From contig JAPYTK010000026.1 of assembly GCA_029941785.1 (NCBI GenBank), positions 1 to 40,399 on the forward strand: a stretch of DNA of 40,399 nt. Direction: 5' to 3'. A program made the translations under genes and the position numbers. Below are positions 15,250-30,269 of this stretch, in pieces (the first letter of the stretch is position 1; the number at the start of each line of letters is the position of its first letter). The notes under the pieces are model-generated. The model saw only the letters and a list, made by a program, of their open reading frames with translations. It did no database searches and was not told the origin of the DNA. This DNA comes from Polyangiaceae bacterium (GTDB lineage Bacteria > Myxococcota_A > Polyangia > Polyangiales > Polyangiaceae).

Positions 15250-15266
15250 CGGATCGATCCGATCCG
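15250..15266. promoter_or_regulatory. Palindromic regulon site A (exact)
   Basis: CGGATC-GATCC-GATCCG, an exact match to CGGATC-N5-GATCCG. Its centre is about 237 bp upstream of the predicted start of transcription for the CXXCH propeller gene. A 20-bp core is identical to site B at 20832. Confidence 0.75.
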
Positions 15267-15279
15267 CGGCGGTGGTTGG

Positions 15280-15296
15280 CGGATCGCTGGGATCAG
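15280..15296. promoter_or_regulatory. Palindromic regulon site A2 (one mismatch)
   Basis: CGGATC-GCTGG-GATCAG, one mismatch from CGGATC-N5-GATCCG, centred 30 bp from site A. It forms the tandem partner upstream of the gene at 15499. Confidence 0.55.
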
Positions 15297-15468
15297 GTGC
15301 CGTTGCGTGTGCTCATCCGACAAGGGGCGAGACCATGCGATGTTTACCGACATCGGTCGGCGAGCGGTTACCTCCCGGCCGGTCAAATGGTCGATATTTT
15401 GTCCAGAAAAGCGCACGAATGAGCCATGATTGCCACGGGCACGTCGCCAAGCGCGCGCAGGGGTGATC

Positions 15469-15484
15469 TGGCATCGTGTTTGCT
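15469..15484 (+). promoter_or_regulatory. Sigma-54-like -24/-12 promoter of the CXXCH propeller gene
   Basis: TGGCATCGTGTTTGCT has an exact GG-N10-GC spacing and TTGCT at -12. Transcription is predicted at 15495, only 4 nt before ATG 15499. Confidence 0.6.
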
Positions 15485-15498
15485 TTGCTCTTTCCCTC

Positions 15499-17511
15499 AT
15501 GAGCGCTTTTCCCCACCACCTCTCCCCGCGATGGACAGCGGCTATCGCCATCGCAACATTGTTTACCGCTTGCATGTCGGGCCAGAGCGCTCAAAAGGGC
15601 GACAGCGGGTCTGGCGCGGGCAGTGGCGGAAAAGGTGATTTCACGACGAGCGCGGGCACCGGCGGATCGGCGGGAAGCCTCCCCAATCCCGATCCTTGCG
15701 CCCAGACCAACAGCTGCCCGGACTTTCCGGCCGAGCCTCTCATGGAAGAAGGCGTGCCGAGCGACGCGGCGAGTTTGTTTGGTCCCTTCGATTCGAACAA
15801 GCTGACGGGGCCGGAGCCCTGTGTGCTCGAGCCGCAACTTTCGGCTGGTGGAAAATCGGGCGCGATGGTGCCGGCGAACTGGACGGCGCCGCGATTCCGT
15901 TTCACCGCGAGCGGGGACCTCTTCGAAATTCGCGTGTCGGCCGATTCGCAGGCCAATGATCTGGTGGCTTACACCACGACGCCCAGCTGGATCATGCCCC
16001 GAGAGATCTGGGAGCCCGCAGCAAAGAACACCGCGGGAAGCGCGATGACGGTGACGATTCGGGCTCTTTCCCAGAGTGAGCCTATGACCCAAAGCGGGAT
16101 CGTGGGTGACATCCTCATCGCGCCGGTCAACGCGGGCGGAAGCATGGTGTTCTGGGCGGTGGTCGATTCCAACGTCGGTCCGGATTCGAGCCGCTTGTAT
16201 GGATTTAGCGTCGGCGACGAGGGGGTGGCCGAGGTGATGCGGCCCAAGACCGTCGCGTTTGACGGCGTGCTCAACGAAGAGGGGGCCCACTTGCGAGGTC
16301 AGTATGGCGGCGGCAAGCCGGGCTTCGAGCCAGGCGAGGTTCAGTGCATCGGTTGTCATACCTCGACGCCCGATGGGGCGGCGGTCGTGTTTACCGACGA
16401 CTGGCCCTGGAACAAGGCTATCGCGTCGGTCGAGGAAGGCTCCGCTGGCGACATTCCCGATTACATCACCCCCGGCGCGAGGGCTTTGCTCAAGATGCCC
16501 TGGCTTGGCACGCAGACGATGACTCCGGCGCGCTTCTCACCCGGTGACCGTCTGCTGGTCGCGAGTTTTGGCGCGCGGACGCAGCCCTTCTGGGGAAGCA
16601 GCGGCCAGAAGGACCGCTTGATTTGGATCGATCTCGAGACGAGCGCCACGATCAGCGACGCGGTCCCGATGGAAAATCCGCAGCAAGCCAAAGACGATCG
16701 CAACGCGGCCATTCTCGCCGCCGAGGGCACCGCCTGGGGCAAGCTTACGATGCAAGGTGAGACGGGGAACGCCACGCTTCCGGATTGGAGTCACGACGGC
16801 GAGCGTATCGTCTACGTGTCGACCGACGACTCGCCCAATGGCCATCCCAGCTATGAGGCGACGACCGCCGATCTGCACATCGTGTCCTTTGGCGAGGGCA
16901 ATGGCGGCGTGGTCGAGCCTGTGCCAGGCGCGTCCAGTCCCGACGTGTACGAGTATTATCCAGCCTTCACTGGCGACGACAGTCTCCTCGCCTTCACGCG
17001 CGCGCCCAAGAAGTACGCCACGCAAGGATGCCCCGGTGGAAGTTGTCCCGATGGGCCCTACTACAACCGTTACGGCGAAATTCACGCCATCCCCGCCACG
17101 GGCGGCAGCTCGGTTCGTCTGGTGGCCAACGACCCGATCGCTTGCGCCGGCGATGATGTGTCCAAGGGCTTGATCAACAGCTGGCCCAAGTGGTCTCCTA
17201 ACTCGGTGTCGGTTGGCGGAAAGACCTATCATTTCCTGATCTTCTCCTCGGCGCGAAGCTACCCGGGGAGCTTTGACATCCCCCATGGGCAGTGGACACC
17301 GCAGACGCTCGATACGCGTTCCTCGCAGCTTTACATGGCTGCCGTGGTGTCCGACGATGAGACAGGCGACATCACAACGTATCCGGCGGTGTACCTTTGG
17401 CATCAAAACCGGGTCGTCAGCGGTCAGACTGCTACCGAGGTCGGCAACAGCAACATCACGCCAGCCTGGGACGACTTCAAGATTCCGGACGTGCCCGACG
17501 TGCCGAAGTAG
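15499..17511 (+). CDS. Lipoprotein with CXXCH motif and WD40-like (PD40) propeller
   Basis: 670 residues from ATG 15499, which gives a lipoprotein signal with lipobox FTAC (Cys25). A Gly/Ser linker follows. The middle (about 120-260) looks Ig- or fibronectin-like. A single CIGCH motif sits at C283-H287, the c-type haem attachment signature, followed by a PD40/TolB-like propeller region (DWSHDGERIVYVSTDD, YYPAFTGDDSLLAFTR, SWPKWSPNSV). It is therefore either a monohaem surface protein or a zinc/structural use of that motif. It has no ribosome-binding site, a sigma-54-like promoter 4 nt upstream, and palindromes A/A2 further up, placing it in the same regulon as the cellulases. Its function is unknown; a redox role in polysaccharide breakdown is conceivable. 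Confidence 0.75.
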   Translation: MSAFPHHLSPRWTAAIAIATLFTACMSGQSAQKGDSGSGAGSGGKGDFTTSAGTGGSAGSLPNPDPCAQTNSCPDFPAEPLMEEGVPSDAASLFGPFDSNKLTGPEPCVLEPQLSAGGKSGAMVPANWTAPRFRFTASGDLFEIRVSADSQANDLVAYTTTPSWIMPREIWEPAAKNTAGSAMTVTIRALSQSEPMTQSGIVGDILIAPVNAGGSMVFWAVVDSNVGPDSSRLYGFSVGDEGVAEVMRPKTVAFDGVLNEEGAHLRGQYGGGKPGFEPGEVQCIGCHTSTPDGAAVVFTDDWPWNKAIASVEEGSAGDIPDYITPGARALLKMPWLGTQTMTPARFSPGDRLLVASFGARTQPFWGSSGQKDRLIWIDLETSATISDAVPMENPQQAKDDRNAAILAAEGTAWGKLTMQGETGNATLPDWSHDGERIVYVSTDDSPNGHPSYEATTADLHIVSFGEGNGGVVEPVPGASSPDVYEYYPAFTGDDSLLAFTRAPKKYATQGCPGGSCPDGPYYNRYGEIHAIPATGGSSVRLVANDPIACAGDDVSKGLINSWPKWSPNSVSVGGKTYHFLIFSSARSYPGSFDIPHGQWTPQTLDTRSSQLYMAAVVSDDETGDITTYPAVYLWHQNRVVSGQTATEVGNSNITPAWDDFKIPDVPDVPK

Positions 17512-17677
17512 CCGGTTCGGGTCGGCCGCCGATTCTCGAGGCGGGTCTACTTGCCGTTCGGCCGCCTCGCCATGCGGCGGGCTTGGCGTGCGGATAGGCG
17601 CAGCGGCGCAGCGGATAAGCGTAGGCGACGGCAGCTCCGGGGAAGCGCCGTCCTCGCTGCTTGTTTTGGGCCGAGGC
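17512..17677. other. Intergenic region between convergent genes
   Basis: 166 bp of high-GC sequence between the stops of two converging genes. It has some loosely repeated GCGGATA/GCGCAGCGG text but no clean stem with a T-run and no credible reading frame. It contains no palindromic regulon site. Confidence 0.5.
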
Positions 17678-19063
17678 TCAGAGCCCGACGGTGTAGCCGA
17701 GATTGAGAGACATGCCGGTGGCCGTCGAGCCCAGCGTCTGCATGATCTTCATCTCGGCAGAGAAGCCCGCCCAGTTGTTGATCTGAAAGCTCGTCCCCAC
17801 GCCGCCTCCGACGAAAGCGCTGCCTGCCTTTCGCCACGCGTGCAGCTTCGTCCGCTGATCATTCACGTAGGCATCATCGCCCTCGTAGACGGTGACGAGC
17901 ACGCGCGTGTCGATCTGGGCCATGCCCCCCGTGAGGAAAACGAAGGGACGAAGGCCGGTCCGCCCGAAGGGCTCGGAGCCAAACCAGTAGCCGACCCGAC
18001 CGGCTGCATGCACGGGCAGAAAGGCTGAGCCATTGGGTACTTCGGGTCCGCCTCCGAACGCGTAGCCGAGACGGACACCGAGGCTGAAGTTCTCGAAGAG
18101 GGAGCGGTCGTAGCCGAGCATCAAGCGGGTTGTGGCGACGCCCACGCCGCCTCCGACCGCGTTGCCCACCTGCGCCTGGTCGCCGGGCTGGGGGATCCCC
18201 TCGTAGTACACGTCCCCTTCGTAGTAGCAGTAATACTGATTGCCACCGGAGCAGACGTTCGCCTCGCTCCCGAAGAACACGAAGTCCTGCTGCGCGCTGA
18301 GGCTCAGCCAGTTCTTCGCCCAGTCGCCGGCCGGCTCGTCGGCTTTTGCGCTGTCGTTGGTTTTGCAGCTCGCGCCATCGCAGCTGTAGCCGTTCTTGCA
18401 ATCGCCATCGCTCTCGCACGGCATCCAGTTCTCGAGGCCCTCTTGCCCGCAGATCGGAAACCCGGGGGGGCATTCCGCTCCACTGTCGCAGCACACGCGT
18501 TCGTCCGCCTCGGCCTTGGGGGCGAGCGGTTTGGCCGTCTCGTTTGTGGCGACCGGCGCGGGGAGCGTCTCGGGTGTCTTGGCCTTGGCGGCTCCGGTCT
18601 CGGGGATCGTCGCGCCCGCCGCTTTGGCCTTGGCTTTGGCTTCATCGAAGGCCGCGCGCATTTTCTTCGTGCTCAGGTCGTCATCCAAGGTCACCGTGGG
18701 GTCGAGCGTCAGGGCTTCGACGAAGGCCGCGCTCCCTCGTTCTTTTTCCTGAAGGCCGGCAAACAGCACCACGCCGTAGGCCGCTTGCACGCGCGCCCTG
18801 GTCGGAGCGGAGCAACTCGAAGCGCAGCTCTTGATGAGCTCTTCGAGCTTGTTCGCTGCCTGCGGGAACTCCATCTCGAGGTAGTTTTCCTGGATGATGG
18901 TCTGGAGGGTGCTGAGCGTCTTGGCGTCGGCCGCTGCGCTGTCGGAGGCCTTCGCCTTTGTCGCTTTCGATTCGGTCGGCGCCGCCGCTTGGCTTGCGGC
19001 TGCCATTCCCAAGGCCCAGGAGTTGAGCAACACGCCCACGGCTACGATTCGTCGTCTCATCAT
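17678..19063 (-). CDS. Outer-membrane beta-barrel protein with Cys-rich insert
   Basis: 461 residues with a strong AGGAGGA ribosome-binding site before ATG 19063. A signal peptide (about 1-27) is followed by a helical, possibly TPR-like segment (45-150), an Ala/Lys/Pro/Glu-rich linker, a Cys-rich patch (RVCCDSGAECPPGFPICG...CESDGDCKNGYSCDGASC, about 190-235), and a C-terminal beta-barrel-like half (about 250-461) with alternating hydrophobic strands ending in SLNLGYTVGL. It lies 30 nt downstream of the porin-like gene and shares its transcript. Role unknown; probably an outer-membrane partner of the porin in glucan uptake or attachment (inference). Confidence 0.75.
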   Translation of the reverse strand: MMRRRIVAVGVLLNSWALGMAAASQAAAPTESKATKAKASDSAAADAKTLSTLQTIIQENYLEMEFPQAANKLEELIKSCASSCSAPTRARVQAAYGVVLFAGLQEKERGSAAFVEALTLDPTVTLDDDLSTKKMRAAFDEAKAKAKAAGATIPETGAAKAKTPETLPAPVATNETAKPLAPKAEADERVCCDSGAECPPGFPICGQEGLENWMPCESDGDCKNGYSCDGASCKTNDSAKADEPAGDWAKNWLSLSAQQDFVFFGSEANVCSGGNQYYCYYEGDVYYEGIPQPGDQAQVGNAVGGGVGVATTRLMLGYDRSLFENFSLGVRLGYAFGGGPEVPNGSAFLPVHAAGRVGYWFGSEPFGRTGLRPFVFLTGGMAQIDTRVLVTVYEGDDAYVNDQRTKLHAWRKAGSAFVGGGVGTSFQINNWAGFSAEMKIMQTLGSTATGMSLNLGYTVGL

Positions 19064-19093: not shown

Positions 19094-20728
19094 CTACCAC
19101 CACATGGTGGCGGTGATCGAGAATACGTTGTTGTCGGGCACGACGCTCGGTGCGCCGCGGTTTCCCGCGTCTTGATTCAAGCTCGTCGCACCGAAACCAT
19201 CGGGCAAAGGTGGCGCGCTTGCGGGCTGTACGCACTGCCGGCGGTCGGCGCCCTCCGCGCAGCTACGCTGGTTGTAGAGGTAGCGCGAGTATTGCAGCGA
19301 GATCTGCTCATGACTGACCCACTGCGACCGAACGAAGACGCGAGGGGAGAAGATGGAAAAGGACTGCTGCGGGATGCGCGAGTTGGGCTGCAGTCTGTCG
19401 TATCGCGCCGCGACGCCGAGCCAGGGCAGGGCGCTGTAGGTCAGATCGGTGCCGTACTTGAGGCGATTGACTTTATCCATGTCCGGATCGTCGCTGCCCA
19501 CGGCGTTGTACATGGCGTACAGCTTGAGCACGACGTCCATCCCTTGTCCCCAGAACTCGTCGCCCTTGAGGATCTTGCCGAGGCTGTGCTCGGTCTGCGC
19601 GAGCACGGTGTGGACGGTTCCGTTGCCCCCACTTTGGCGGCTCGGCCCATTGAGGTAGTTGTCGCTGACGCCGAGGTTGAACTCGCCGCCACCCTTGGCG
19701 TGGATCACCTCGATGGCCGGTCCGACGGTCACGGCGTGGACTGCTTTGAGATAGGAATAGCCGAGGTAGTAGTAGCCGAAACGGCCGAGATCGGCCTTGA
19801 TCTCGGGACCGATGACGGTGAGCCGACCATCGGGTTGCTCGTCGCCAGCGGGCAACACCGTGAGATCTTCCCCGTCACGGCTTTCTTCTTGGGACCACGA
19901 CGTGAGGTAGTGCGCTCCGAAGTCGAACATCTTCTTGAAGCGCACCCCGAGGTGTCCATGGTGCAGCAGGGTGAAACGGGAGGTGTTGTACTTGCTTGGA
20001 TCGGGCCGCACGGCGCCCAAGCCATGCTCCATCTTGAAGGTGAAGTCCTTGTAGTCGATCTCGACTTTGCGCAGCTCGCCCATCGAGTGGGTGCGGCCGA
20101 AGAGGTACGTGTCGAACTCGCCGGCGTCGTAGCGTCCCGCCAAACCGTAACGATTGCTGAACGCGCCCGCGCGCCAGCTGAAGCGCAGATTGCGCAGGCC
20201 GAGCGGCGGCCGGACGGTGACGTAGCCTTGGGCGATGCCGAACTGCGCACCGTCTTGATTCCAGGCCGCGTCGGTAAAGTTGAAGCCTTGGATCGATACG
20301 GTGCCGGTGGCCCACGAGTTGCCGTAGTTCCAGTACAGCTCGGCCCAGTCACGACCGCTGTGGTTGCTGTGTTGCCAACTGAGGTACTGATCGTCGGGAA
20401 CGAGGGGGGAGTGGATGGTCGTCTTGCTCTGATCGGCGGTTGGGTTGTCGCGCTTGCCGAAGCCGAGGCGAAGCGGCGCGCGAATGTAGCCGTGGAAGGT
20501 GAGCTTGTAGTCGCCGTGCTCGAGGAGAGCCGGGCCGCCGTGGCCCGTGAGCTGTTCGTCGTGTGCGTTCACGCCGCCCGGATCGGGTGCGGGCGCGAGC
20601 GAGGCGGGCTTGGACTTGCCGGCGACGTTGTCGAGCTTCACGGGCTCCGCGCCGTGGCTCGCGAGAGAGAGAAGCGAGGTCCCGAGCAGCACGCTGACTG
20701 TACAGAGAGTGTTTTGGAGGTAGCTCAT
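19094..20728 (-). CDS. Porin-like outer-membrane protein (probable oligosaccharide channel)
   Basis: 544 residues from ATG 20728, which begins a good signal peptide (MSYLQN...LASHGA). After a short Ala/Pro-rich stretch the rest is a long run of amphipathic beta strands (DYKLTFHGYIRAPLRLGFG, LRNLRFSWRAGAFSNRYGLAGRYD, GYYYLGYSYLKAVHAVTVG) closing with FSITATMWW, a typical barrel C-terminus ending in an aromatic residue. This fits a large outer-membrane porin. The gene sits under palindromes B/B2 with the CBM3 gene on the other side, so a role in letting cello-oligosaccharides cross the outer membrane is likely (inference). No TonB box is seen. It lacks a ribosome-binding site, and a sigma-54-like element predicts a 3-nt leader. 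Confidence 0.78.
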   Translation of the reverse strand: MSYLQNTLCTVSVLLGTSLLSLASHGAEPVKLDNVAGKSKPASLAPAPDPGGVNAHDEQLTGHGGPALLEHGDYKLTFHGYIRAPLRLGFGKRDNPTADQSKTTIHSPLVPDDQYLSWQHSNHSGRDWAELYWNYGNSWATGTVSIQGFNFTDAAWNQDGAQFGIAQGYVTVRPPLGLRNLRFSWRAGAFSNRYGLAGRYDAGEFDTYLFGRTHSMGELRKVEIDYKDFTFKMEHGLGAVRPDPSKYNTSRFTLLHHGHLGVRFKKMFDFGAHYLTSWSQEESRDGEDLTVLPAGDEQPDGRLTVIGPEIKADLGRFGYYYLGYSYLKAVHAVTVGPAIEVIHAKGGGEFNLGVSDNYLNGPSRQSGGNGTVHTVLAQTEHSLGKILKGDEFWGQGMDVVLKLYAMYNAVGSDDPDMDKVNRLKYGTDLTYSALPWLGVAARYDRLQPNSRIPQQSFSIFSPRVFVRSQWVSHEQISLQYSRYLYNQRSCAEGADRRQCVQPASAPPLPDGFGATSLNQDAGNRGAPSVVPDNNVFSITATMWW

Positions 20729-20742
20729 CGGAGCCCTATTGA

Positions 20743-20758
20743 GCATGCATCGTGCCAA
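20743..20758 (-). promoter_or_regulatory. Sigma-54-like promoter of the porin operon
   Basis: On the minus strand TGGCACG-ATGC-ATGC (20757 to 20743) has the exact GG-N10-GC spacing and one mismatch (TTGC to ATGC). The predicted start of transcription is 20731, 3 nt before ATG 20728. Confidence 0.55.
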
Positions 20759-20806: not shown

Positions 20807-20823
20807 AGGATCCTTCGGATCCG
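20807..20823. promoter_or_regulatory. Palindromic regulon site B2 (one mismatch)
   Basis: AGGATC-CTTCG-GATCCG, one mismatch from the consensus, centred 25 bp from site B. It lies between the divergent porin and CBM3 genes. Confidence 0.6.
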
Positions 20824-20831
20824 GTTTGTCT

Positions 20832-20848
20832 CGGATCGATCCGATCCG
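20832..20848. promoter_or_regulatory. Palindromic regulon site B (exact)
   Basis: CGGATC-GATCC-GATCCG, identical to site A including the following CGG. Its centre is about 109 bp upstream of the predicted porin start and about 168 bp upstream of the predicted CBM3 start, both usual distances for a sigma-54 enhancer site. Confidence 0.75.
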
Positions 20849-20981
20849 CGGAATGGTCTGTTCCTCCAGCGCGAGCGAAAATCGCTGGGGAATTTTTCGA
20901 TCGCGCTAACGTAGGGTATTGGCGTAGCCTTTGCATTGGAGTCGTCGATAGACTGCTTGACGGTGCGTTCGTTTCTGGACG

Positions 20982-21000: not shown

Positions 21001-21750
21001 ATGACGATGATGATGATGAAAGCGCGAACGATTTCCACGCTGGCCACGCTGGCCTTGGCTGGGCTTTGCGCCTGCGTGCACGGCATCGAGCCGGAAGGGC
21101 CCGGTGGCGAGGGTGGCAGCGCGGCGGTGGGTCCGGGCGGTGGCGGCGATGCCTCGACGGTGGGCGCCGGCGGCAGCGGCCCGGCGACGACCAGCGCCGC
21201 GGCGACGGGTGGCAGCAGCAGCGTGACCGCCGCGAGCAGCACGGCCACGAGCGGCACCGGCGGCAGCGCGACGGTCGCTTCCTCGAGCGCGAGCGGCAGC
21301 CCGGTGATGGGCGTCAGCATCGAGTACAAGGCCGACAACACCCCGAGCAACAACTCGATCAACCCGCATTTTCGCGTGGCGAACTCCGGCTCGAGCGCGG
21401 TGGATCTGACGAACATCACGATCCGTTACTGGTACACCAAGGAGACCGGCTCCATGACGCAGGTCTTTCACTGCGACTGGGCGAAGATCGATTGCGGCAA
21501 TCTCGGCGGCGCTTTCACCGTCGCTTCGGGCATGAACGCCGATCACTACCTCGAGATCACCTTCACCGGCGGCAGCGTGGCGCCAGGCGAAGACAGCGGT
21601 CCCATTCAACTGCGCTTCAACATGTCCGATTATGCGGCGTTCGATGAGACGAACGATTACTCGTACGACTCCAGCAAGACGGCCTTCGCCCCGTGGGACA
21701 AGGTCACGGCCTATTCGGGCGGTCAGCTCATCTGGGGCACCGAGCCCTGA
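21001..21750 (+). CDS. CBM3 cellulose-binding lipoprotein
   Basis: 249 residues from 21001, but ATGs at 21007, 21010, 21013 and 21016 are all in frame. A start at 21010-21016 would fit the predicted promoter better. The signal ends in lipobox LCAC (Cys25). A Gly/Ala/Ser/Thr linker of about 70 residues leads to a family 3 carbohydrate-binding module (about 103-249) with diagnostic YKADNTPSNNSINPHFRVANSGSSAVDLTNITIRYWYT and FNMSDYAAFDETNDYSYD. CBM3 binds crystalline cellulose. With no catalytic domain this is a surface anchor or scaffold for cellulose. It overlaps the lactonase gene by one base (TGATG), so the two are coupled, and it diverges from the porin around palindromes B/B2. Confidence 0.9.
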   Translation: MTMMMMKARTISTLATLALAGLCACVHGIEPEGPGGEGGSAAVGPGGGGDASTVGAGGSGPATTSAAATGGSSSVTAASSTATSGTGGSATVASSSASGSPVMGVSIEYKADNTPSNNSINPHFRVANSGSSAVDLTNITIRYWYTKETGSMTQVFHCDWAKIDCGNLGGAFTVASGMNADHYLEITFTGGSVAPGEDSGPIQLRFNMSDYAAFDETNDYSYDSSKTAFAPWDKVTAYSGGQLIWGTEP

Positions 21751-22844
21751 TGCGGACGGGCAGGGCTTTTCTCGCGCTGGGTTCGCTCTGCGCGTTGGTG
21801 CTGGCGTGCGGGGATGACATCGCGAGCTCGCCTCCGGGAACGACCACTTCCGGCGATCCGGGCGCGACGAGCGGCAGCGGCGGGGGCGCGACGACGGGCG
21901 CGGGCGGAGCGAGCAGCAGCTCCAGCCAGACGAGTGGCAGCGGCGCGAGCGCGGGCGGCTCGGCGCCGGTGGTCTGTCCCCCGGGCATGGAGTACGGCGA
22001 TCCCTTGCCGGCGCAAGCGACGGCGACCGAGGTGGCGGGCGGTTACAAATTCCTCGAGGGGCCGGTGTGGCTCGCGGATGCCGGCGTGCTGTTCTTCTCC
22101 GACATGAACTTCAGCGGCAGCGGGCCCGACGGCGTGCCCCCTTCGACGATCTACCGGCTCACGCCGCCTTCTGCCGTGGACGTGCTGACGACCGAGGTGC
22201 ACTCCAACGGGCTGGCGCTCGACACCGATGGATCCATCGTGGCGTGCACGCACGATCAGCGAAGCGTGTCCCGTGTCGATCCCACCACCGCGGCGCGCAC
22301 GACGCTCGCGGCGACGTACGAGGGCGACAAGTTCAACAGCCCCAACGACGCCATCGTCCGAAGCGACGGCACGATCTTCTTTACCGATCCGACCTGGCAG
22401 CTCGGCAACCGCCGGCAGGAGATCGCCTTCAAGGGCGTGTACCGCATCGACACCGGCGGCAACGTCCACCTCGTGGCGGATGATTTCGGCAGCCCCAACG
22501 GGATCGCGCTCTCGCCGGACGAGAGCACGCTCTATGTGGCGGACGACGCCAACGGTCACGTGCGAAGCTTCGCGGTCGCGGCGGACGGCGCCACGAGCGG
22601 AGGGGCGCTCTTCGTGACGGTTGGTGGGGTCGACGGCATGGCGATCGATTGCGCCGGCAACCTCTACGCGAGCTCCCACCAAGGGATCATGGTCTTCGAT
22701 GACGTGGGCAAGCCGCTCGGCACCATCGCGGTGGGGCAAAAGCCCAGCAACGCGGCCTTCGGCGGAGCCGAGCGCAAGACGCTCTACATCACGACGTCCA
22801 ATGCGCTGTATTCTGTCGCGCTGAACGTCCCTGGACTGCCCTAG
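21750..22844 (+). CDS. SMP-30/gluconolactonase-family lipoprotein
   Basis: 364 residues from ATG 21750. The signal has lipobox LVLAC (Cys20), then a Gly/Ser/Thr linker to about 72, then an SMP-30/gluconolactonase-like six-blade propeller. The usual metal and substrate residues appear to be present: E103 (FLEGPVW), N199 (NSPNDAIV), N250 (SPNGIALS) and D295 (VDGMAID). Family members hydrolyse sugar lactones using a divalent metal. Because it is coupled to a cellulose-binding lipoprotein, a cello-aldonolactone substrate from oxidative cellulose cleavage is a reasonable idea (inference only). It would act at the cell surface or in the periplasm. Confidence 0.85.
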   Translation: MRTGRAFLALGSLCALVLACGDDIASSPPGTTTSGDPGATSGSGGGATTGAGGASSSSSQTSGSGASAGGSAPVVCPPGMEYGDPLPAQATATEVAGGYKFLEGPVWLADAGVLFFSDMNFSGSGPDGVPPSTIYRLTPPSAVDVLTTEVHSNGLALDTDGSIVACTHDQRSVSRVDPTTAARTTLAATYEGDKFNSPNDAIVRSDGTIFFTDPTWQLGNRRQEIAFKGVYRIDTGGNVHLVADDFGSPNGIALSPDESTLYVADDANGHVRSFAVAADGATSGGALFVTVGGVDGMAIDCAGNLYASSHQGIMVFDDVGKPLGTIAVGQKPSNAAFGGAERKTLYITTSNALYSVALNVPGLP

Positions 22845-22873
22845 GCGGTCGCGGACGACAGCACGCCTTCGCT

Positions 22874-23668
22874 ATGACCATCAAGCTCGTAAGCTACAAC
22901 GTCTTGGCTGACAGTTACATTCGACCAGACTGGTATCCGCACACTCCTAAAGAATGGCTCACGCCGGATCTTAGGCACCCCGCGCTGGTCGAAGAGATTG
23001 TCCGCATGAATGCGGACATCGTTGCCCTACAAGAGGTCGAGCGACCCGTGTTCAAGATCCTGGAGAAAAAGCTTGGCCCCCTCGACTACGAGAGTCGCTA
23101 CGAGCCCAAAGGCCGCAACAAGCCTGATGGGTGTGCGATGTTTGTGCGAAGCTCGGTGTGCGCGGTCGAGTCGTGGCAACGACTTGACTACGCTGACTCG
23201 ACCGGCGACAGCCCCGCAAGCGGCCATCTCGCTCAACTCGCCACGCTGAACTGGGACGGCCGAACGCTCGCCGTGGCCAACACCCACCTCAAGTGGGCGC
23301 CGCCAGACACCGCCCGCGGCGAACACCTCGGGGCGCGTCAACTCGACGAGCTGGCCGACCATTGCTCAGCGGCACACCACGACGGCTGGGTGGTTTCCGG
23401 TGACTACAATTGCACGCCCGACAGCGCTGTACTGAAGAAACTTCACAACGCGGGGTTCGTCGATGCGCACAACGGAAGCGATGCGCCCACCTGTAACGCC
23501 AACGGTGAAACGCGCAAGCTCGACCACATCTTCATCGCCGGAGCGCTGGTGGCCTCTCCGACGCCCATCGGTGCCATCCAAGCAGACACTCCTCTTCCTT
23601 CCGCAGAACATCCGTCCGACCACCTCCCTGTAGGGGTGCACTTGAGCTGGATCGCCGAGACGAGCTAA
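22874..23668 (+). CDS. Endonuclease/exonuclease/phosphatase (CCR4-like) family protein
   Basis: 264 residues, no signal peptide. EEP-fold landmarks in order: SYNVLAD (N9), LQEVE (E54), NTHLKW, GDYNCTPDS and the catalytic-type SDHLPVG near the C-terminus. The opening SYNVLADSYI matches the CCR4/nocturnin branch, eukaryotic-like deadenylases or phosphatases, but in bacteria the substrate could be RNA, a nucleotide or a phosphoester. It starts 29 nt after the lactonase gene and may be co-transcribed, though its function has no obvious cellulose link. It converges with the vWA gene. No clear ribosome-binding site. Confidence 0.82.
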   Translation: MTIKLVSYNVLADSYIRPDWYPHTPKEWLTPDLRHPALVEEIVRMNADIVALQEVERPVFKILEKKLGPLDYESRYEPKGRNKPDGCAMFVRSSVCAVESWQRLDYADSTGDSPASGHLAQLATLNWDGRTLAVANTHLKWAPPDTARGEHLGARQLDELADHCSAAHHDGWVVSGDYNCTPDSAVLKKLHNAGFVDAHNGSDAPTCNANGETRKLDHIFIAGALVASPTPIGAIQADTPLPSAEHPSDHLPVGVHLSWIAETS

Positions 23669-23697: not shown

Positions 23698-24834
23698 CTA
23701 CAGTGGTTTGACGACGTCGCAGGGACAGTCGATGTGGATCGACGCCGAGATGGTCTTCAGATCGTCGCAGGCGGTTCCGATCACCTCGAGCTCCGTCTCG
23801 CTCTTGAGCTTCCAGGAAGTGTTGTGCGGTAGGGATTTTTCGTCGAGCTCGACCGTGCAAAGGTGCCCCAGCTCGATGTCGACCTTGGCCTTGAGCTCGA
23901 ACACGCAATCGCGCACGCCCATGATGATCCCGTGGATGTCCGTCTCGAGCTGGGTCTGATCGGCGGGCTGGTAGTAGGTCGCGTCCCCGCCGCTTGGCGC
24001 GTAGCTGCCGTTCTGGCCGCTGATCCCGCTGTTCTTGCAGGTGTAGATCCAGTTCTGGGTGGGCTCCTCGACCGCTTGCCCGTCGCCGGCGTTTGCAAGA
24101 TCGCTGAGGTGTTTGGCGCCGACCTCGTTGCCGATCCCGATCACGATCGTCCCGATCCCCGCGTCATGGGCCGCTTGGATGGCGGTGATCGACTCGTCCT
24201 GTCCGCACTGCGGATCGGGGTGGCCGCAGGTGTCGGGCTCACCGTCCGTCGCCAACAGAATGTACTTCGGTCCCGGCTCGGCGACCTGCTCGAGGATCTC
24301 TGTCGCACGCAGCAGCGCCGGACCGGTCGGCGTCTCACCCTTGAAGTTCGGCTTGGTGCTGGCCTGGTCGTAGGCGCTCTGAATGGCGCTAAAATTGTCG
24401 AGCTTTGGCGGCACCTCGCTCATGATCGGGCAGGTGTTGTCGCTACCATTGTTGGTGTACGTCGCGAGCCCGAAACGCACCTCTCCGTCGAGCTGTTTCA
24501 CGATCCCCGAGCCCGGATCGACGAGCGCGTCGTACAGCGGTTGCCAGCGGTCTTTGTTCGAGCCGTAGGCATTGTCGAACATGCTGCTCGATCGATCGAT
24601 GAGCAGCATCACCGTCGGGATTTGCTTCTCGAACTCGACCGTGAGCTCGTTGCAGCCGCCACCTTTGCCGCTCGTAAAGTCGTCATTGCCGCCAGAGCTG
24701 ATGGTGCTTGCCTGTCCGCCGCTGCCCGCTTGGTCGCCGAGCTTGATGTCGCTGCCCGTCGAACTGCAGGCGGTGATCCCCGCCGCCCAAGCGAGCACGC
24801 TGCATGTTGCGAATCCGATCCATCTCTTCGTCAT
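23698..24834 (-). CDS. vWA-domain lipoprotein, last gene of the GH9 operon
   Basis: 378 residues, with GAGGAG six bases before ATG 24834. The signal has lipobox GITAC (Cys23) and a Gly/Ser linker to about 60. A von Willebrand A domain (about 70-275) has the MIDAS motif DRSSS at 80-84, a later TPTGPALLRA and ATDGEPDTCG, so it should bind a divalent metal and a protein or glycan ligand. The C-terminal 100 residues contain four Cys. It begins 16 nt after the GH9 cellulase stop, so it belongs to the cellulase operon, which is unexpected and suggests a role in adhesion or in organising surface enzymes (inference). Confidence 0.85.
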   Translation of the reverse strand: MTKRWIGFATCSVLAWAAGITACSSTGSDIKLGDQAGSGGQASTISSGGNDDFTSGKGGGCNELTVEFEKQIPTVMLLIDRSSSMFDNAYGSNKDRWQPLYDALVDPGSGIVKQLDGEVRFGLATYTNNGSDNTCPIMSEVPPKLDNFSAIQSAYDQASTKPNFKGETPTGPALLRATEILEQVAEPGPKYILLATDGEPDTCGHPDPQCGQDESITAIQAAHDAGIGTIVIGIGNEVGAKHLSDLANAGDGQAVEEPTQNWIYTCKNSGISGQNGSYAPSGGDATYYQPADQTQLETDIHGIIMGVRDCVFELKAKVDIELGHLCTVELDEKSLPHNTSWKLKSETELEVIGTACDDLKTISASIHIDCPCDVVKPL

Positions 24835-24850
24835 TCGCGTCTCCTCGCGT

Positions 24851-27223
24851 TCAGTCGTTGCCGCGCTCGTCCAGATAGGCCGCTACCCAAGCAAAGGGCG
24901 CGTTCCAATTGATCGTGACCTCGTTGACCGACCAGGCCTCGATGTGGTCGACGAAACATTGCTGAGGTGCGCAGCCGCCAAGCCCGGACGCCTTGGCCCG
25001 TGGATCCTGGATGTCGGAGTTCGGTCCGCCCGACACGGCGCCCGGAGGGGCTTCGGGGTACTTTTGGTCGAGCTGCTGCGCCCAGAAACGGTGGTGGGGG
25101 TTTCGTAGCGGCCGCGTGCCGTAACCGGTCACGTACGATTGGGCCATTGGGTTTCGCCCGAGCAGGTAATCCATCCCTGCCGCCATGGCTTCGAGGTGCT
25201 TCTTGTTCCGCGAGAAATCGTAGGACAGCCCGAAGATGATCATGTTGTTGAGAACCAGCGAGTTGGATCCCCAGGGGTACTTCTTCGTGGCCGCGGCGGA
25301 GAGCGGTAGGCGGTAGCCTTCCTTTTCGATGATCGCCGCGTAGACATCCGCCGCCTTGCCGATCGCATCTCGGGCGCGCTTGCGCTCTTCGCCCGAGACC
25401 CCGCTCGGCACGACGGCCAGGCTGATCGTGCCCAGCGCGCGGGTGTCCTGCCAGGTCATCGCGCTCTGCGCCCCGCCCGACGCCGGCGACGGCACCGTGA
25501 AGGCGAGCTTCGATCCGAGCACCGCCTCGCGGTACACCTCGTCACCCGTCGTCACGTACAGCTCCGCGGCCGCCCAATAAAACTCGTCCGCGGCGCTCTT
25601 GTCGTCGTAGGGCCCGCCGCCCACGTTGTCCGTCGAGGGAGGCAGCTTGTCCGGGTTTTCCTTGGCGGCCTGCCAGGCTCGCTTGGCGGCCGTCAGGCAA
25701 CGGCTCGCAAAGGCGGGATCGATCTCGCGCCAAATCCTGGCCGCCTGCGCCGCGTTGGCGGCGAGGTTGAGCGTCGCGGTCGTGCTCGGCGCGTGCAGAT
25801 GACGGGGCGTCTTGTCCTCGTGCGCCATGAGCGGCAGCCCGGTCCACTTGTCGCCGTGCACCTTGTGGTGCGCCATGCCCGCGAACGGTTTGCCTTGTGG
25901 CACCTGCATGCGCAAGAAAAGCTCGAGTCCCCAGCGCGCCTCATCGAGCAGATCGGACACGCCGTTGCCGCTCTCCGGGATGTTCAGCGAGCGATCCCCG
26001 AGCGAGTCGAGCGAGCGACCGAGGTGCTGCGTGCGCTCGTGCAGGTTCAGCAGCGTCCACACGCTGATCCCACCGTTGACCACATACTTTCCGTGATCGC
26101 CGGCGTCGTACCAGCCGCCCGACACGTCGAGCGTGTAGTTGCACTTCAGCTCGTCGAGGCAACGCATGCTCTTGTCGGCGAGGTGCCCCGCGGGGCGCGC
26201 CCACTTCTTGTCGCCCGCGAAGGGCATCACGATCTTCAGGCCGCTTCGGTTGTGATAAAAATAGCGGAGCGCGTCGACCTTCATTTGCGCGTAGAGCTTG
26301 TCGCCCACCGCAAAGGCGTCGCTCGTCTCTTCGCCCACCCGCAGGCGGTAGCCCTCGCCTGGCGTCTTGAAAGACGAAAAATCGATCCAGTGCAAATGAT
26401 CCCCCGAGGCGAGATCGTCGCCGAAGACGCTCGTCGTGCCTTCACCCACCACCTGCTTGTCCGCGTCGAGAAGCTGCCAGCCGAGCGGTGACGTCGAGGC
26501 GTGCTCCACGGACGCGAGCTTGCTTCGCCCGGGAAAGTAGCCGACCTGGTTGAGGCGAATGCGCGGCGCCTTCGCGCGGCGGTAGGGCTTGTGTTTGGGG
26601 TCATCGAGCGCCACCTCGTCGATGCACACCTCGGTTGGCTCACCCTCCGTGGCGAGCGGCCCGCCGGCATGAAACGTCAGCTCGGCCGTCTTGTCGTCGC
26701 CACCGCGCATCAAGAAGTGCCCGCTGAAGGTCTTTGGCTCGGGTCCGATCTCGACCTGCGCCGCCCAGTACTCGGTGTACGGCGGTCCCACCATGCCCAC
26801 CTTCGGTCGAAGCTGGGTCTTGCGGTTGGCGCGCGCCGTGAAGCTGACGCGGTACTTGCGGCCTTCGATCAGCGGAAGGTGGCGGTGCCTGAGCTGCGCG
26901 TCGTAGCTGTTGTAGCCGCGCTCATCGATCTGCAGGCACAGGGCGCCGTCCTTCACGGCCGCCGTGCCGCGGGCCGGCGGCATCAGGCTCACCATCCACG
27001 GATCGCGCGAGCCGTCGTCGAACTGCCCATTGGCCAAGAGGTTGCGGTCCCCTTCGATCACCGGCGGCTCGCCGTCGTCGACCGCTGGCGCTTCGCTCGC
27101 CGCGTCAGGCGCTTCCTTGGGTGTGTTGGTGACGGTCGCGCTGCAGGCCGCGAGCAGGATGGTGGCGAGCCCCAGGCTCGAGCGCTGGAGGAAGGGCCGG
27201 GCGTGGATGGCTCGTCTCGTCAC
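24851..27223 (-). CDS. GH9 cellulase lipoprotein (CBM4/9 - Ig - GH9)
   Basis: 790 residues from GTG 27223, chosen because AGAGGA lies six bases upstream and the signal then ends at lipobox LLAAC (Cys27). Domains in order: a CBM4/9-like beta-sandwich (about 60-210, NLLANGQFDDGSRDPWMVS), an N-terminal Ig-like domain of CelD type (about 218-305, RIRLNQVGYFPGRSKLA), and a GH9 catalytic (alpha/alpha)6 barrel (about 312-788). The catalytic Asp pair lies in GGWYDAGDHGKY (D373, D376), and the general acid is E768 in NEVTINWNAP. GH9 enzymes cleave beta-1,4-glucan with inversion. Being lipidated, it should sit on the cell surface. It follows a carbohydrate-binding lipoprotein by 26 nt and precedes the vWA gene by 16 nt. 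Confidence 0.95.
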   Translation of the reverse strand: MTRRAIHARPFLQRSSLGLATILLAACSATVTNTPKEAPDAASEAPAVDDGEPPVIEGDRNLLANGQFDDGSRDPWMVSLMPPARGTAAVKDGALCLQIDERGYNSYDAQLRHRHLPLIEGRKYRVSFTARANRKTQLRPKVGMVGPPYTEYWAAQVEIGPEPKTFSGHFLMRGGDDKTAELTFHAGGPLATEGEPTEVCIDEVALDDPKHKPYRRAKAPRIRLNQVGYFPGRSKLASVEHASTSPLGWQLLDADKQVVGEGTTSVFGDDLASGDHLHWIDFSSFKTPGEGYRLRVGEETSDAFAVGDKLYAQMKVDALRYFYHNRSGLKIVMPFAGDKKWARPAGHLADKSMRCLDELKCNYTLDVSGGWYDAGDHGKYVVNGGISVWTLLNLHERTQHLGRSLDSLGDRSLNIPESGNGVSDLLDEARWGLELFLRMQVPQGKPFAGMAHHKVHGDKWTGLPLMAHEDKTPRHLHAPSTTATLNLAANAAQAARIWREIDPAFASRCLTAAKRAWQAAKENPDKLPPSTDNVGGGPYDDKSAADEFYWAAAELYVTTGDEVYREAVLGSKLAFTVPSPASGGAQSAMTWQDTRALGTISLAVVPSGVSGEERKRARDAIGKAADVYAAIIEKEGYRLPLSAAATKKYPWGSNSLVLNNMIIFGLSYDFSRNKKHLEAMAAGMDYLLGRNPMAQSYVTGYGTRPLRNPHHRFWAQQLDQKYPEAPPGAVSGGPNSDIQDPRAKASGLGGCAPQQCFVDHIEAWSVNEVTINWNAPFAWVAAYLDERGND

Positions 27224-27249
27224 GGTTCGTCCTCTCGTTGCTCGCTCCC

Positions 27250-27957
27250 TCACGGAGCGCATCCGACGAAGCTGACGTCGTCGATCCAGATGTCGTAGGC
27301 AGCGCCTTGTTGGTTGATCTGCCACTGCAGGCCGTAGATCGAGCGGGCGTCCACGGCGGCCGGTCGCGGCGTGCCCCAGCCGGGGAGCTGCTGCATCTTG
27401 GCGAAGGGGATGACGAACTGTTGCCACTGCTCGGTGAGGGCCAAGTCTGTGCCAAAGTCGTTGAAGCACTCGCTGCAGCGCTTGGCCTCCGGGTTCGTGT
27501 TTCCGTCCGGTACCTTCAAGCGTACGTTGCCGGCCGATCCTTGGCTGCGCCGCGCGTAAAACGACACGCCCGAGTGCGCGCTCGCGTCGTACGGTCCTTT
27601 CGGATCGATGAAGTTGATCCCGAATCCCGCGTACACGAGATCGCCCCGCGCGATGGTTCCCTCGAAACGCGCGGCGTAGGCCGATCCGTTCGAGCCGCCC
27701 TCCGCCATCGAGAAGGTACCGCCGCGCTTGCCTGCTGTCGGCGTCACGGTGGTCCCCACGTCGTCGGTGAAGGTGTACATGTAGCCGTTTCGTCCCTTGT
27801 GCCGGATCACTTGATTGTCGTGATCTTCACCGTCCTCGATCACCACCTCACGTGAGCAGATCGGACCGGCCGGGCTGCCGGGCGCTTCGCTGGTCGCGAA
27901 AGCCTGACAGCCGGCCGTTGAGGCCGCACACAACAAGAGGACGAAGCGAGGCAGCAT
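27250..27957 (-). CDS. CBM11/CIA30-like carbohydrate-binding lipoprotein (1)
   Basis: 235 residues. The signal has lipobox TAGC (Cys17). The remainder is one beta-sandwich domain with DGEDHDNQVI...NGYMYTFTDD near the start, GVSFYARRSQGSAGNVRLKVPDGNT in the middle, WQQFVIPFAKMQQLPGWG and DIWIDDVSFVG at the end. This layout fits CBM11/CIA30-type galactose-binding-like folds seen next to glucanases. It has two Cys in RCSECF and no catalytic domain. It is close in design to the protein encoded just upstream (27973-28797), so the two are probably paralogues. It lies 15 nt after that gene and 26 nt before GH9. Likely role: surface glucan binding. Confidence 0.78.
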   Translation of the reverse strand: MLPRFVLLLCAASTAGCQAFATSEAPGSPAGPICSREVVIEDGEDHDNQVIRHKGRNGYMYTFTDDVGTTVTPTAGKRGGTFSMAEGGSNGSAYAARFEGTIARGDLVYAGFGINFIDPKGPYDASAHSGVSFYARRSQGSAGNVRLKVPDGNTNPEAKRCSECFNDFGTDLALTEQWQQFVIPFAKMQQLPGWGTPRPAAVDARSIYGLQWQINQQGAAYDIWIDDVSFVGCAP

Positions 27958-27972
27958 CGCGGGCCAGGATCC

Positions 27973-28797
27973 CTAGTAGAAGCCGATTTGATCGACCTCG
28001 AAATCGAAGTCTGTCGCTTTCGCTACCTGGAACTGGATGCCGACGAGCGCGGTTGCATCAAAATCGGCGGCTGTGCCCCAGCCCTCTTGGTACATGTCCG
28101 CGAAGGGGATGACGAATTGTTTCCAGTCGCTCGACAGTGCGACGACCTTGCCGTGGGCGTCGCTGCACTCCATCTCGCAGGTGCCGCCTTCGGCGGTCGG
28201 CGTGACGCCCGTCGTGAGAAGCTTGAAGCGGACCGGTGTCGTGCCTTTAGCGTAGAAAGCGATGCCCGTGTGCTTGCTGCCGTCGTGCTTTTCCTTGATC
28301 CCGGCGCCGCCCATGCCGTCGCCCATGTTGTTCAAGTCGAAGCCCATGCCCGCTCCCCACTCGACGAAGCCGCTGCCAGCCGTTTGCGCCGAGTAGCTGC
28401 TGCCGCTCGGCCCACCGTCGGTTGGTGCAAACTCTCCGCTCGCGGCCGGCGATTGCACGCCGCCATCCGTCTCATCATTGTAGGTGTACCAGGCGCCGAT
28501 CCGCCCGCCATTGGCGAGGATTGACGAATCGCCGTCCTCGAGGTCGTCGATCATGTCGGCGATGGTCACGCCGCCGCCGCTGCCTCCGCCAGTTCCGGCG
28601 CCGCTTCCGCTGCCGTTTCCGCTGCCGCTTCCGGTGCCGTTTCCGCTGCCGCTTCCGGTGCCGCTGCCGCCGGTGCCCGCGCTGGTGGAGCCGTCGTCTT
28701 CGACTACGTCGGAGCCGGAGCCGGCGTCACAGCCGAGGGCAGCCACGGAGGCTGCGGAAATCAATGCGATGAAGGTGTATCCGTATTTGCTGTTCAT
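27973..28797 (-). CDS. CBM11/CIA30-like carbohydrate-binding lipoprotein (2), first gene of the GH9 operon
   Basis: 274 residues from ATG 28797. The signal has lipobox AALGC (Cys23), followed by a Gly/Ser/Asn/Thr linker (about 36-75) encoded by a DNA tandem repeat. The C-terminal domain (about 78-274) shares the pattern of its neighbour: DDLEDGDSSI...GAWYTYNDETDGG, GIAFYAKGTTPVRFKLLTTGVTP, CEMEC, WKQFVIPFADMYQEGWG and FDFEVDQIGFY. This suggests a carbohydrate-binding beta-sandwich. It heads the four-gene unit ending with GH9 and vWA, with palindromes C/C2 about 150-190 bp upstream. Longer in-frame starts reach 28905, but this ATG gives the clean signal peptide. The ribosome-binding site is poor. 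Confidence 0.8.
   Translation of the reverse strand: MNSKYGYTFIALISAASVAALGCDAGSGSDVVEDDGSTSAGTGGSGTGSGSGNGTGSGSGNGSGSGAGTGGGSGGGVTIADMIDDLEDGDSSILANGGRIGAWYTYNDETDGGVQSPAASGEFAPTDGGPSGSSYSAQTAGSGFVEWGAGMGFDLNNMGDGMGGAGIKEKHDGSKHTGIAFYAKGTTPVRFKLLTTGVTPTAEGGTCEMECSDAHGKVVALSSDWKQFVIPFADMYQEGWGTAADFDATALVGIQFQVAKATDFDFEVDQIGFY
28591..28677. repeat. 24-bp tandem repeat encoding a Gly/Ser linker
   Basis: Two identical 24-bp units (28612-28635 and 28636-28659), with partial copies on both sides, encode an eight-residue Gly/Ser/Thr/Asn repeat in the linker of the first CBM lipoprotein. The repeat number could vary between strains. Confidence 0.75.
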
Positions 28798-28814
28798 CAA
28801 ATCCAAACCTTGTC

Positions 28815-28830
28815 TGTGGGCTTTGTGCCA
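28815..28830 (-). promoter_or_regulatory. Weak sigma-54-like element before the CBM/GH9 operon
   Basis: On the minus strand the -24 half TGGCACA is good, but the -12 dinucleotide is AC instead of GC. The predicted start is 28804, 7 nt before ATG 28797. Confidence 0.35.
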
Positions 28831-28944
28831 TTGCCCGGCCAACGCCGCGCAGGTTGCGTGGGCTCTGTAAAGCATGGGCCGTGCCAGCCGACGCTGGAGC
28901 GTCAAGTGATGGAAATGACGTGTCGCAGGCCCGCCATCTCGATC

Positions 28945-28987
28945 AGGATCGGATCGATCCGTTCCGCTGCGGGATCTGCGCGTTCCG
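28945..28987. promoter_or_regulatory. Palindromic regulon cluster C (three overlapping or adjacent sites)
   Basis: Site C at 28950-28966 (CGGATC-GATCC-GTTCCG) has one mismatch. An overlapping copy at 28945-28961 (AGGATC-GGATC-GATCCG) has one mismatch, and a third at 28971-28987 has two. They lie about 150-180 bp upstream of the predicted start of the CBM/GH9 operon, between it and the end of the GH5 gene. Confidence 0.6.
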
Positions 28988-29004
28988 CCTTTGGGCTCCG
29001 GCCG

Positions 29005-30174
29005 TCACTTGGAGAGAGCGGCCTTGACGACCTGACCCGCGGCGCTCGGCGTACCGGCCCAGTTGTCGATGAGCGCCGGGAACTGGCAACCGCCCGGGAA
29101 CCAGGCCCACCCCGTCCAGGAGACGCCGCGCGCCGCGGCGTAGTCGATGACCTGCTGGTTCCAGCTCCCGGAGCAGTTGGCGGAGCTGCCAAACTCCGTC
29201 ACGATCACCGGATCGGTCGCGGTCAAGAAACCCCAGTCCTGGTCCCACACGCTGGGCTGCTTGTCGCCGTAGTCGTAGACGTGGCTCGCGTAGACGATGT
29301 TGTAGCCTTGGATGCGGTGCGCGGGCACGCCCGACAGATCGTAGGCCCAGCGCAAACCACCGATGATCACGAGGTTGTCAGCGCCTGTCGCGCGAACGGT
29401 GTCATAGAGCTCTTGCATGCCGACGACCTGGAAGCCGTCGCCGCTGTCGCCCCCGTTTTGCCAAACCTCCCAGGGGATATCGCGCGGCTCGTTGTAAAGC
29501 TCATACTGGACGCGACCGTCGTCCTTGTAGCGGGTCGCCACGCTCTGCCAAAAGGTGATCGAATGGGTGTCGGCCATGCGCTGCTGATCGGGCGTGTTGG
29601 CGAAGTTGCCCTTGTCCGTCCAGTGCAGATCCAGGATGACGTCGAGCCCGGCGTCCTCGGCCCACTGCACGTTCTGATCGACCGTGGCCTTGTATCCTGG
29701 CGCGTACACGCTCGAGCCCTCGAGCCAAAATCCCTGGTTCAGGGCGATGCGCACGACGTTGAATCCCCAGCTCGCCATCGCCTGGTAATCCCCTGGCGAC
29801 AGCTGTTCGCCCTTGGGGTTCCACTCGAGCGAGGGTCGCGCCACCCCCCGAAACACATGGGGTGTTCCGCTCTCGTGAAAGATGGTGTTGCCCTGCGTGT
29901 AGTAGCCGTCCGGCGCGGTGGGTCCGGCGGTTCCGCCCGTGCTCGTGCTCCCCGTCGCCCCGTTGCTTGCGGCGTTCGTGGTGCCGTTGCCGGAGTTCTC
30001 TCCGCTCCCCGCGCTCGCCGCGGTGTTGCCCCCTTGGCCATCCGAGGTGCTCCCATCGCCGCCGTTGCCGATCAAGGGGTCGGAGTTCCAGCATGCGCAC
30101 ACTGCGATGAGGCCTAGGGCGAGCCAGGATCGCATCTTCGGATGGGTTGGGATGGCTGGTTTCGCTGCGATCAT
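29005..30174 (-). CDS. GH5 cellulase-like lipoprotein
   Basis: 389 residues from 30174, or 376 from ATG 30135 (MRSWLALGLIAVCAC). Either gives lipobox VCAC. A Gly/Ser/Asn/Thr linker runs to about residue 90. The GH5 (beta/alpha)8 domain (about 95-385) shows FRGVARPSLEW, the conserved R in NVVRIALN, LDLHW, the acid/base E229 in LYNEPRD and the nucleophile E327 in VIVTEFGS. GH5 enzymes retain configuration and include endoglucanases and mannanases; cellulase is inferred from the neighbours. It diverges from the ABC transporter operon, and regulon sites D and E lie between them. The start at 30174 would sit 2 nt after a predicted sigma-54 start. Confidence 0.9.
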   Translation of the reverse strand: MIAAKPAIPTHPKMRSWLALGLIAVCACWNSDPLIGNGGDGSTSDGQGGNTAASAGSGENSGNGTTNAASNGATGSTSTGGTAGPTAPDGYYTQGNTIFHESGTPHVFRGVARPSLEWNPKGEQLSPGDYQAMASWGFNVVRIALNQGFWLEGSSVYAPGYKATVDQNVQWAEDAGLDVILDLHWTDKGNFANTPDQQRMADTHSITFWQSVATRYKDDGRVQYELYNEPRDIPWEVWQNGGDSGDGFQVVGMQELYDTVRATGADNLVIIGGLRWAYDLSGVPAHRIQGYNIVYASHVYDYGDKQPSVWDQDWGFLTATDPVIVTEFGSSANCSGSWNQQVIDYAAARGVSWTGWAWFPGGCQFPALIDNWAGTPSAAGQVVKAALSK

Positions 30175-30186
30175 GGCCCCGTTCTA

Positions 30187-30202
30187 AGCAAGGGCCGTTC
30201 CG
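30187..30202 (-). promoter_or_regulatory. Sigma-54-like promoter of the GH5 gene
   Basis: On the minus strand CGGAACG-GCCC-TTGCT has exact GG-N10-GC spacing and a perfect TTGCT. It overlaps site D by two bases. The predicted start is 30176, 2 nt before ATG 30174. Confidence 0.5.
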
Positions 30203-30217
30203 GATCGATGCGATCCG
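30201..30217. promoter_or_regulatory. Palindromic regulon site D (exact)
   Basis: CGGATC-GATGC-GATCCG, exact. It abuts the GH5 -24 element and is centred about 160 bp upstream of the predicted ABC operon start. Confidence 0.72.
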
Positions 30218-30252
30218 GTTTGCAGGGAGTGGTCACACCTGCTCCGCAAGTT

Positions 30253-30269
30253 CGGATCCGTGTGATCCG
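30253..30269. promoter_or_regulatory. Palindromic regulon site E (exact)
   Basis: CGGATC-CGTGT-GATCCG, exact in both half-sites with a different centre, which shows that the 6-bp arms rather than the centre are conserved. It is about 85 bp from the GH5 start and 108 bp from the ABC operon start. Confidence 0.7.

Follow-up and report, generated by a model that had tools for sequence, protein, structure and literature searches.

How are the cellulose-related genes controlled that lie together on a single contig of a Polyangiaceae bacterium? The stretch of DNA analyzed here, referred to as the window, is the entire contig C26 (JAPYTK010000026.1, 40,399 nucleotides) of assembly GCA_029941785.1, which comprises 415 contigs and 6.03 Mb. 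A first-pass annotation, made from the letters of the window alone, had noticed that the palindrome CGGATC-N5-GATCCG recurs in front of these genes and had proposed that it defines a regulon. Our analysis leads us to predict, with a probability of roughly 80%, that the palindrome is the enhancer (upstream activating sequence, UAS) of a sigma-54 regulon for cellulose use. In the following, numbers with the prefix C denote contigs of this assembly, those with G genomes and those with L loci.

Distribution of the palindrome

The window contains four exact copies of the palindrome and four copies with one mismatch, all identified by motif match and without an assigned strand:

15250..15266, exact UAS CGGATCGATCCGATCCG
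15280..15296, UAS with one mismatch CGGATCGCTGGGATCAG
20807..20823, UAS with one mismatch AGGATCCTTCGGATCCG
20832..20848, exact UAS CGGATCGATCCGATCCG
28945..28966, two overlapping UAS with one mismatch each (28945-28961 and 28950-28966)
30201..30217, exact UAS CGGATCGATGCGATCCG
30253..30269, exact UAS CGGATCCGTGTGATCCG

Seven of these positions had been given before and were all reproduced; the copy at 28945, which overlaps its neighbor, is additional. All eight copies are intergenic and fall into the four gene-preceding regions to which they had been assigned, and tandem copies are spaced by 25-52 bp. The clustering of the palindrome in the window is real and non-random. From base composition alone, 0.005 exact copies would be expected in 40 kb, and a window-based Markov model of order 4 that retains the GATC enrichment gives 0.025 compared to the four observed, with a maximum of one in 200 simulations. 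When one mismatch is allowed, 0.4 copies are expected versus eight observed (maximum of four in 200 simulations). The rate in the rest of the genome (seven exact copies in 5.99 Mb) corresponds to 0.047 copies in the window (Poisson p = 2e-7). The earlier conclusion thus holds, while the accompanying figure of 0.002 was too low.

In the whole genome, the palindrome occurs 11 times exactly and 70 times with at most one mismatch; 53 of these 70 sites were inspected, and the full reading covered about 0.81 Mb (813 kb). Of the 11 exact sites, nine are intergenic, although intergenic DNA makes up 8.9% of the 813 kb examined, and the remaining two lie within genes (C63 and C356). A scan for scattered or coding occurrences, which had been named as the way to refute the regulon, thus gave the opposite picture. 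The off-window copies with one mismatch are mostly found in genes and hence set the background level. An excess of the five-nucleotide gap in the 813 kb set is biased because many of its loci were chosen for the motif, and we relied on the whole-genome count instead. Among 39 relatives, the exact palindrome occurs at a background-like frequency, this genome excepted.

The genes preceded by the palindrome in the window are the following:

15574..17511, plus strand, secreted CXXCH (haem-motif) beta-propeller-like lipoprotein (weak PD40 and cytochrome matches; CXXCH in the sequence)
19094..20728, minus strand, porin-like outer-membrane protein without Pfam match; 17678-19039 is probably co-transcribed
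21001..23668, plus strand, unit of a CBM3 protein, an SMP-30-like protein and an endonuclease/phosphatase-like protein (Pfam)
23698..28797, minus strand, unit of a CBM11-like protein, a second CBM-like protein, a CBM4_9-CelD_N-GH9 cellulase and a VWA protein (Pfam)
29005..30174, minus strand, GH5 cellulase (Pfam Cellulase)
30375..37220, plus strand, unit of an SBP_bac_5 binding protein, two permeases, two ATPases and a GH1 beta-glucosidase (gene calls and Pfam, the latter not for the second permease)

The porin and CBM3 units are divergent, as are the GH5 and transporter-GH1 units, and palindromes lie between the members of each pair. The genes of the CBM11-CBM-GH9-VWA unit share one strand with gaps of 16-27 bp. 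A search of the genome contigs with the GH5 protein gave no match.

Exact intergenic palindromes also precede genes elsewhere in the genome, which further supports the regulon. One lies before a CBM11-like gene on C239, whose product is 47% identical to the CBM11-like protein of the window, one before a fibro-slime gene (TIGR02148) on C117 and two before a DUF1552 gene on C127. In Fibrobacter, fibro-slime proteins have been implicated in cellulose binding (PMC3079729, PMC4668043). The earlier wording that the palindrome stands before all cellulose-related units holds for this window only; further limits are the copies inside genes on C63 and C356, a site on C21 discussed below and the C127 pair, the promoter of which is weak. 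The two C127 palindromes (L019, 1158-1215) are 33 bp apart, and the second lies within a perfect palindrome with 13-bp arms, CCTCGACCGGATC-GAAAG-GATCCGGTCGAGG. The DUF1552 promoter box is only weak, and this pair could represent a hairpin rather than a UAS.

Predicted sigma-54 promoters downstream of the palindrome

The spacers between the palindromes and the genes hold TGGCAC-N5-WTGC boxes, which we scored with a sigma-54 matrix approximated from the published consensus. The best intergenic matches of the window lie between the palindromes and the gene starts and on the correct strand (15469+, 20757-, 20920+ and 28886-). The predicted promoters, with p values from shuffling, are:

15469..15484, plus strand, TGGCATCGTGTTTGCT before the CXXCH propeller (13.7 bits, p 0.0065)
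20742..20757, minus strand, TGGCACGATGCATGCT before the porin (15.4 bits, p 0.0005)
20920..20935, plus strand, TGGCGTAGCCTTTGCA before the CBM3 gene (12.1 bits, p 0.006)
28871..28886, minus strand, TGGCACGGCCCATGCT before the CBM11-CBM-GH9 unit (15.4 bits, p 0.003)
30187..30202, minus strand, weak sigma-54-like box CGGAACGGCCCTTGCT before GH5 (9.9 bits, p 0.013)
30343..30358, plus strand, weak sigma-54-like box GTGCACGCTTCTTGCA before the ABC transporter-GH1 unit (8.8 bits, p 0.033)

Outside the window, the boxes on C117 (2748+, 15.5 bits) and C239 (6182-, 16.1 bits) are very strong, so that six of eight targets possess a strong box (12.1-16.1 bits). Among 261 upstream regions, the eight genes preceded by a UAS rank 2, 4, 5, 6, 8, 11, 20 and 30 by sigma-54 score (Mann-Whitney p = 2.4e-6), and the shuffle controls of nine promoters, the weak C127 promoter included, combine to a Fisher p of about 2e-13. 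The signal is confined to the -24/-12 spacing, where the mean best score is 13.0 bits compared to 1.6-5.9 bits at nine other gaps. In the 813 kb of own DNA, promoters with both UAS and box are limited to the window targets, C117, C239 and, weakly, C127.

The geometry is similarly regular. Sites lie mostly 84-131 bp and at most 237 bp upstream of the predicted starts; UAS centers cluster at -84 to -109, those of the propeller being located at -207 and -237. The step from distances near -85 to those near -107 corresponds to about two turns of the helix, as would be expected if its face matters, and the weak GH5 and transporter boxes imply distances of -85 and -108 in agreement with the strong promoters. 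Since the palindromes are positioned upstream of sigma-54 promoters, they are best read as activator enhancers. The genome encodes RpoN (PF04552, E = 2.2e-64, contig C44) and has 27 strong Sigma54_activat matches.

The candidate activator

Two neighboring genes of the window are of particular relevance for the control of these promoters:

11377..12795, plus strand, bacterial enhancer-binding protein with FHA, sigma-54 AAA+ and Fis-type helix-turn-helix (HTH) domains, candidate regulator (Pfam FHA, Sigma54_activat, HTH_8)
12812..14356, plus strand, Ser/Thr protein kinase, likely signaling partner (Pfam Pkinase; HRD and DFG motifs)

The FHA domain (PF00498, E = 7.5e-13) spans residues 54-117, N-terminal to the AAA+ domain. 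The Walker A, Walker B and GAFTGA motifs are intact, the HTH is present, and the Pfam matches of the protein include no PRD, EIIA or EIIB. We regard this protein as the best candidate for the activator of the regulon and consider the assignment rather probable. The kinase gene adjoins the homologous activator in several relatives, and from this adjacency the kinase probably controls the FHA activator by phosphorylation. Together with a third protein (14398-15228) without Pfam family, both genes form a module (11377-15228, plus strand) that is conserved across Polyangiaceae, including genomes without a cellulose locus.

In a phylogenetic tree, the activators of the window and of G063 are sisters (96/91 support), ahead of the copy from G001, which belongs to the same genus as the window genome. 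Both carry the recognition helix SGIARRYFR, which is found in no other of 28 homologues; these have Q, Y, N or H in place of the final R.

Comparison with relatives

G063 is a metagenome-assembled genome from another genus of the same family (JAUILJ01, Polyangia bacterium Co_bin.42), and its protein ranks first among the homologues of the window activator (66% identity). In G063, the UAS array GGGATCGAGGCGATCCGGAGGATCCG is located 3.3 kb after the activator gene and immediately before a CXXCH propeller lipoprotein gene, the same gene order as in the window, the two propellers showing weak similarity. Activator and site are hence linked in a second genus as well. A further site, AGGATCGCTCAGATCCG, lies between the SBP and porin genes of G063, with a box facing each gene (13.6 and 11.2 bits); it is the only intergenic site with at most one mismatch in the cellulose loci of relatives that were scanned. 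A search of eight genomes for site and box combined yielded only the porin promoter already known and a single unrelated match in this genome.

In G011 and G113, an activator homologue lies 4-6 kb from porin-CBM-GH9 loci. In G113 (L202, about 8400-8515), the porin has a sigma-54-like box (12.5 bits), and about 77 bp ahead of this box lies the perfect 20-bp palindrome GTGCGATCCTCGGATCGCAC. It is located near an FHA activator homologue and may belong to a diverged form of the circuit.

The porin-like family is present in 36 of 184 genomes of the order, where it often adjoins CBM11-like genes, and probably represents a cellulose-associated outer-membrane protein family. Its members, including the homologues at L165-L193, have no Pfam or NCBIfam match and often stand beside CBM11-like and GH9 genes in Polyangiaceae. 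A separate observation on the window concerns the flagellin encoded at 37239-38669 (minus strand): its N- and C-terminal domains are normal, and between them lies a large insert that looks like a VWA domain on visual inspection (DSSASM motif).

The proposed regulon

From this arrangement we infer binding, activation, kinase control and an inducing signal as follows. A hexameric enhancer-binding protein, most likely the FHA protein 11377-12795 and probably under phosphorylation control by the adjacent Ser/Thr kinase, would dock on paired CGGATC-N5-GATCCG sites, loop the DNA and contact the RNA polymerase-sigma-54 complex waiting at the -24/-12 box. This contact would open the promoters of the propeller, porin, CBM3, CBM11-GH9, GH5 and transporter-GH1 units and, elsewhere in the genome, those of the CBM11-like and fibro-slime genes. 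It is plausible that one branch of the Polyangiaceae recruited the kinase and FHA activator pair as a switch reserved for cellulose, by which a single enhancer ties together attachment, passage through the outer membrane, hydrolysis and the import of oligosaccharides. The recognition helix would then have co-evolved with the site: in the window genome and in G063 its arginine goes with CGGATC-N5-GATCCG, and in G113 the site is possibly a different GATC palindrome, GTGCGATCCTCGGATCGCAC.

Several observations weigh against this proposal. The sigma-54 matrix was not trained on this genome. The boxes of GH5 and the transporter unit are weak (9.9 and 8.8 bits), the former overlaps the UAS at 30201 by 2 bp, and the latter implies a leader of only about 6 nt. 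The exact intergenic palindrome at C21:840, located beyond a flagellin gene, has no sigma-54 box, and in G063 no recognizable box was seen in the propeller promoter. The covariation of the recognition helix rests on two related proteins. Polyangium, Minicystis and most other cellulolytic relatives possess activator homologues, but neither site nor box was found in their cellulose loci. The site was tested for general conservation among the cellulolytic Polyangiaceae and turned out not to be conserved, with G063 alone sharing it; hence, the circuit would be limited to a narrow branch or have turned over. G001 has the activator-kinase module, but no CBM11-like or porin match was found there, so the ancestral role of the module need not be cellulose.

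How cellulases are switched on in Gram-negative cellulose degraders is poorly known, and the Fibrobacter genome paper names cellulase regulation as an unanswered question while noting that a GH9 cellulase has one gene for a sigma-54-like response regulator in its vicinity (PMC3079729). Here, the combination of one short palindrome with a promoter class and a candidate activator predicts a compact cellulose regulon. Its poorly characterized members, namely the porin-like family, the CXXCH propeller, the fibro-slime protein and the DUF1552 protein, thereby gain a testable link to cellulose, and a non-developmental role is suggested for FHA-type activators and kinases of myxobacteria.

Alternative explanations

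The same architecture of enhancer and sigma-54 promoter might be served by another activator, for instance the GAF-type protein of C239 or the FHA-type protein of C234; the genome has 27 strong activator-domain matches. We consider this possible, though unlikely. The GAF activator gene directly precedes the CBM11-like target on C239, with the exact site in the intergenic gap between them. However, the protein reads GAVAGA in place of GAFTGA and DN in place of DE in Walker B, which makes sigma-54 activation unlikely, and G063, which has the site, lacks a clear orthologue of it (39% identity, not reciprocal). It was rejected as the regulator on these grounds. Its closest family relatives adjoin uroporphyrinogen-synthase-like genes and not cellulose genes; the protein (L020, 6285-7907, minus strand) is possibly a DNA binder that does not activate. 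The C234 activator gene (L334) has a site with two mismatches at 3444 and one with a single mismatch at 3813 upstream, possibly by chance. Near activator promoters, chance alone would give about 0.16 one-mismatch sites, which renders this case weak.

Alternatively, the palindrome could be the operator of a one-component regulator of the LacI, TetR or GntR type acting on sigma-70 promoters and induced by cello-oligosaccharides, like CelR of Thermobifida. Regulators of these families typically have inverted repeats in front of glycosidase and ABC transporter genes. The sites are, however, situated upstream of the promoter boxes at the distances given above and not over the promoter, sigma-54 boxes are strongly over-represented downstream of them, and no LacI/TetR/GntR-type regulator gene was seen among the window genes. 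A classic LacI/TetR operator was set aside on account of promoter type and position, and we regard an operator of this general kind as very improbable.

Chance clustering, or another role such as methylation or a structural repeat, draws on a roughly threefold excess of GATC over base composition, on the two or three GATC in each palindrome and on the extension of C127:1191 and C21:840 into longer perfect palindromes, but is barely credible given the Markov control that retains the GATC enrichment, the intergenic bias, the spacing specificity of the boxes and the conserved position in G063.

Comparison with known systems

The NtrC site has the consensus TGCACC-N5-GGTGCA in a 6+5+6 layout. NtrC/NifA-type regulons share with the predicted regulon this site geometry, the pairing of palindromic enhancers at about 85-240 bp ahead of the -24/-12 boxes, and an AAA+ activator that has GAFTGA as well as a Fis-type HTH. 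They differ in the sequence of the site, in their targets, which are nitrogen genes instead of cellulases, porin and sugar import, and in the input domain, which is a receiver or GAF domain there and FHA here.

Two regulators named CelR invite comparison. The PRD-type CelR of Bacillus and Clostridium is a sigma-54 activator of cellobiose phosphotransferase system (PTS) operons (PMC10864463, PMC6615313). It likewise places the use of a cellulose breakdown product under sigma-54 control but carries PTS regulation domains and controls no secreted cellulases, while no PTS genes were seen here. The LacI-family CelR of Thermobifida/Thermomonospora also relies on one palindrome common to several cellulase promoters, yet it represses vegetative promoters, a mechanism for which we found no evidence here.

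The closest counterparts of the candidate activator are the FHA-domain enhancer-binding proteins of Myxococcus xanthus, which are linked to fruiting-body development (Jelsbak, Givskov and Kaiser 2005, cited in PMC12288465). They combine the same FHA, sigma-54 AAA+ and HTH domains, whereas the protein of the window is linked to cellulose genes and a named DNA site and additionally has an adjacent kinase gene. In the open literature, with most subscription papers outside the search and hence as weak evidence, we found no report of sigma-54 control of myxobacterial cellulase genes, and the main text of a cross-phylum sigma-54 survey mentions neither cellulose nor cellulase (PMC12316311). Judged by all defining features that can be tested on sequence, the predicted system belongs to the known class of sigma-54 enhancer regulons; what appears to be new is the site, the target set and the dedication of such a regulon to cellulose, with a candidate activator of the FHA/kinase type.

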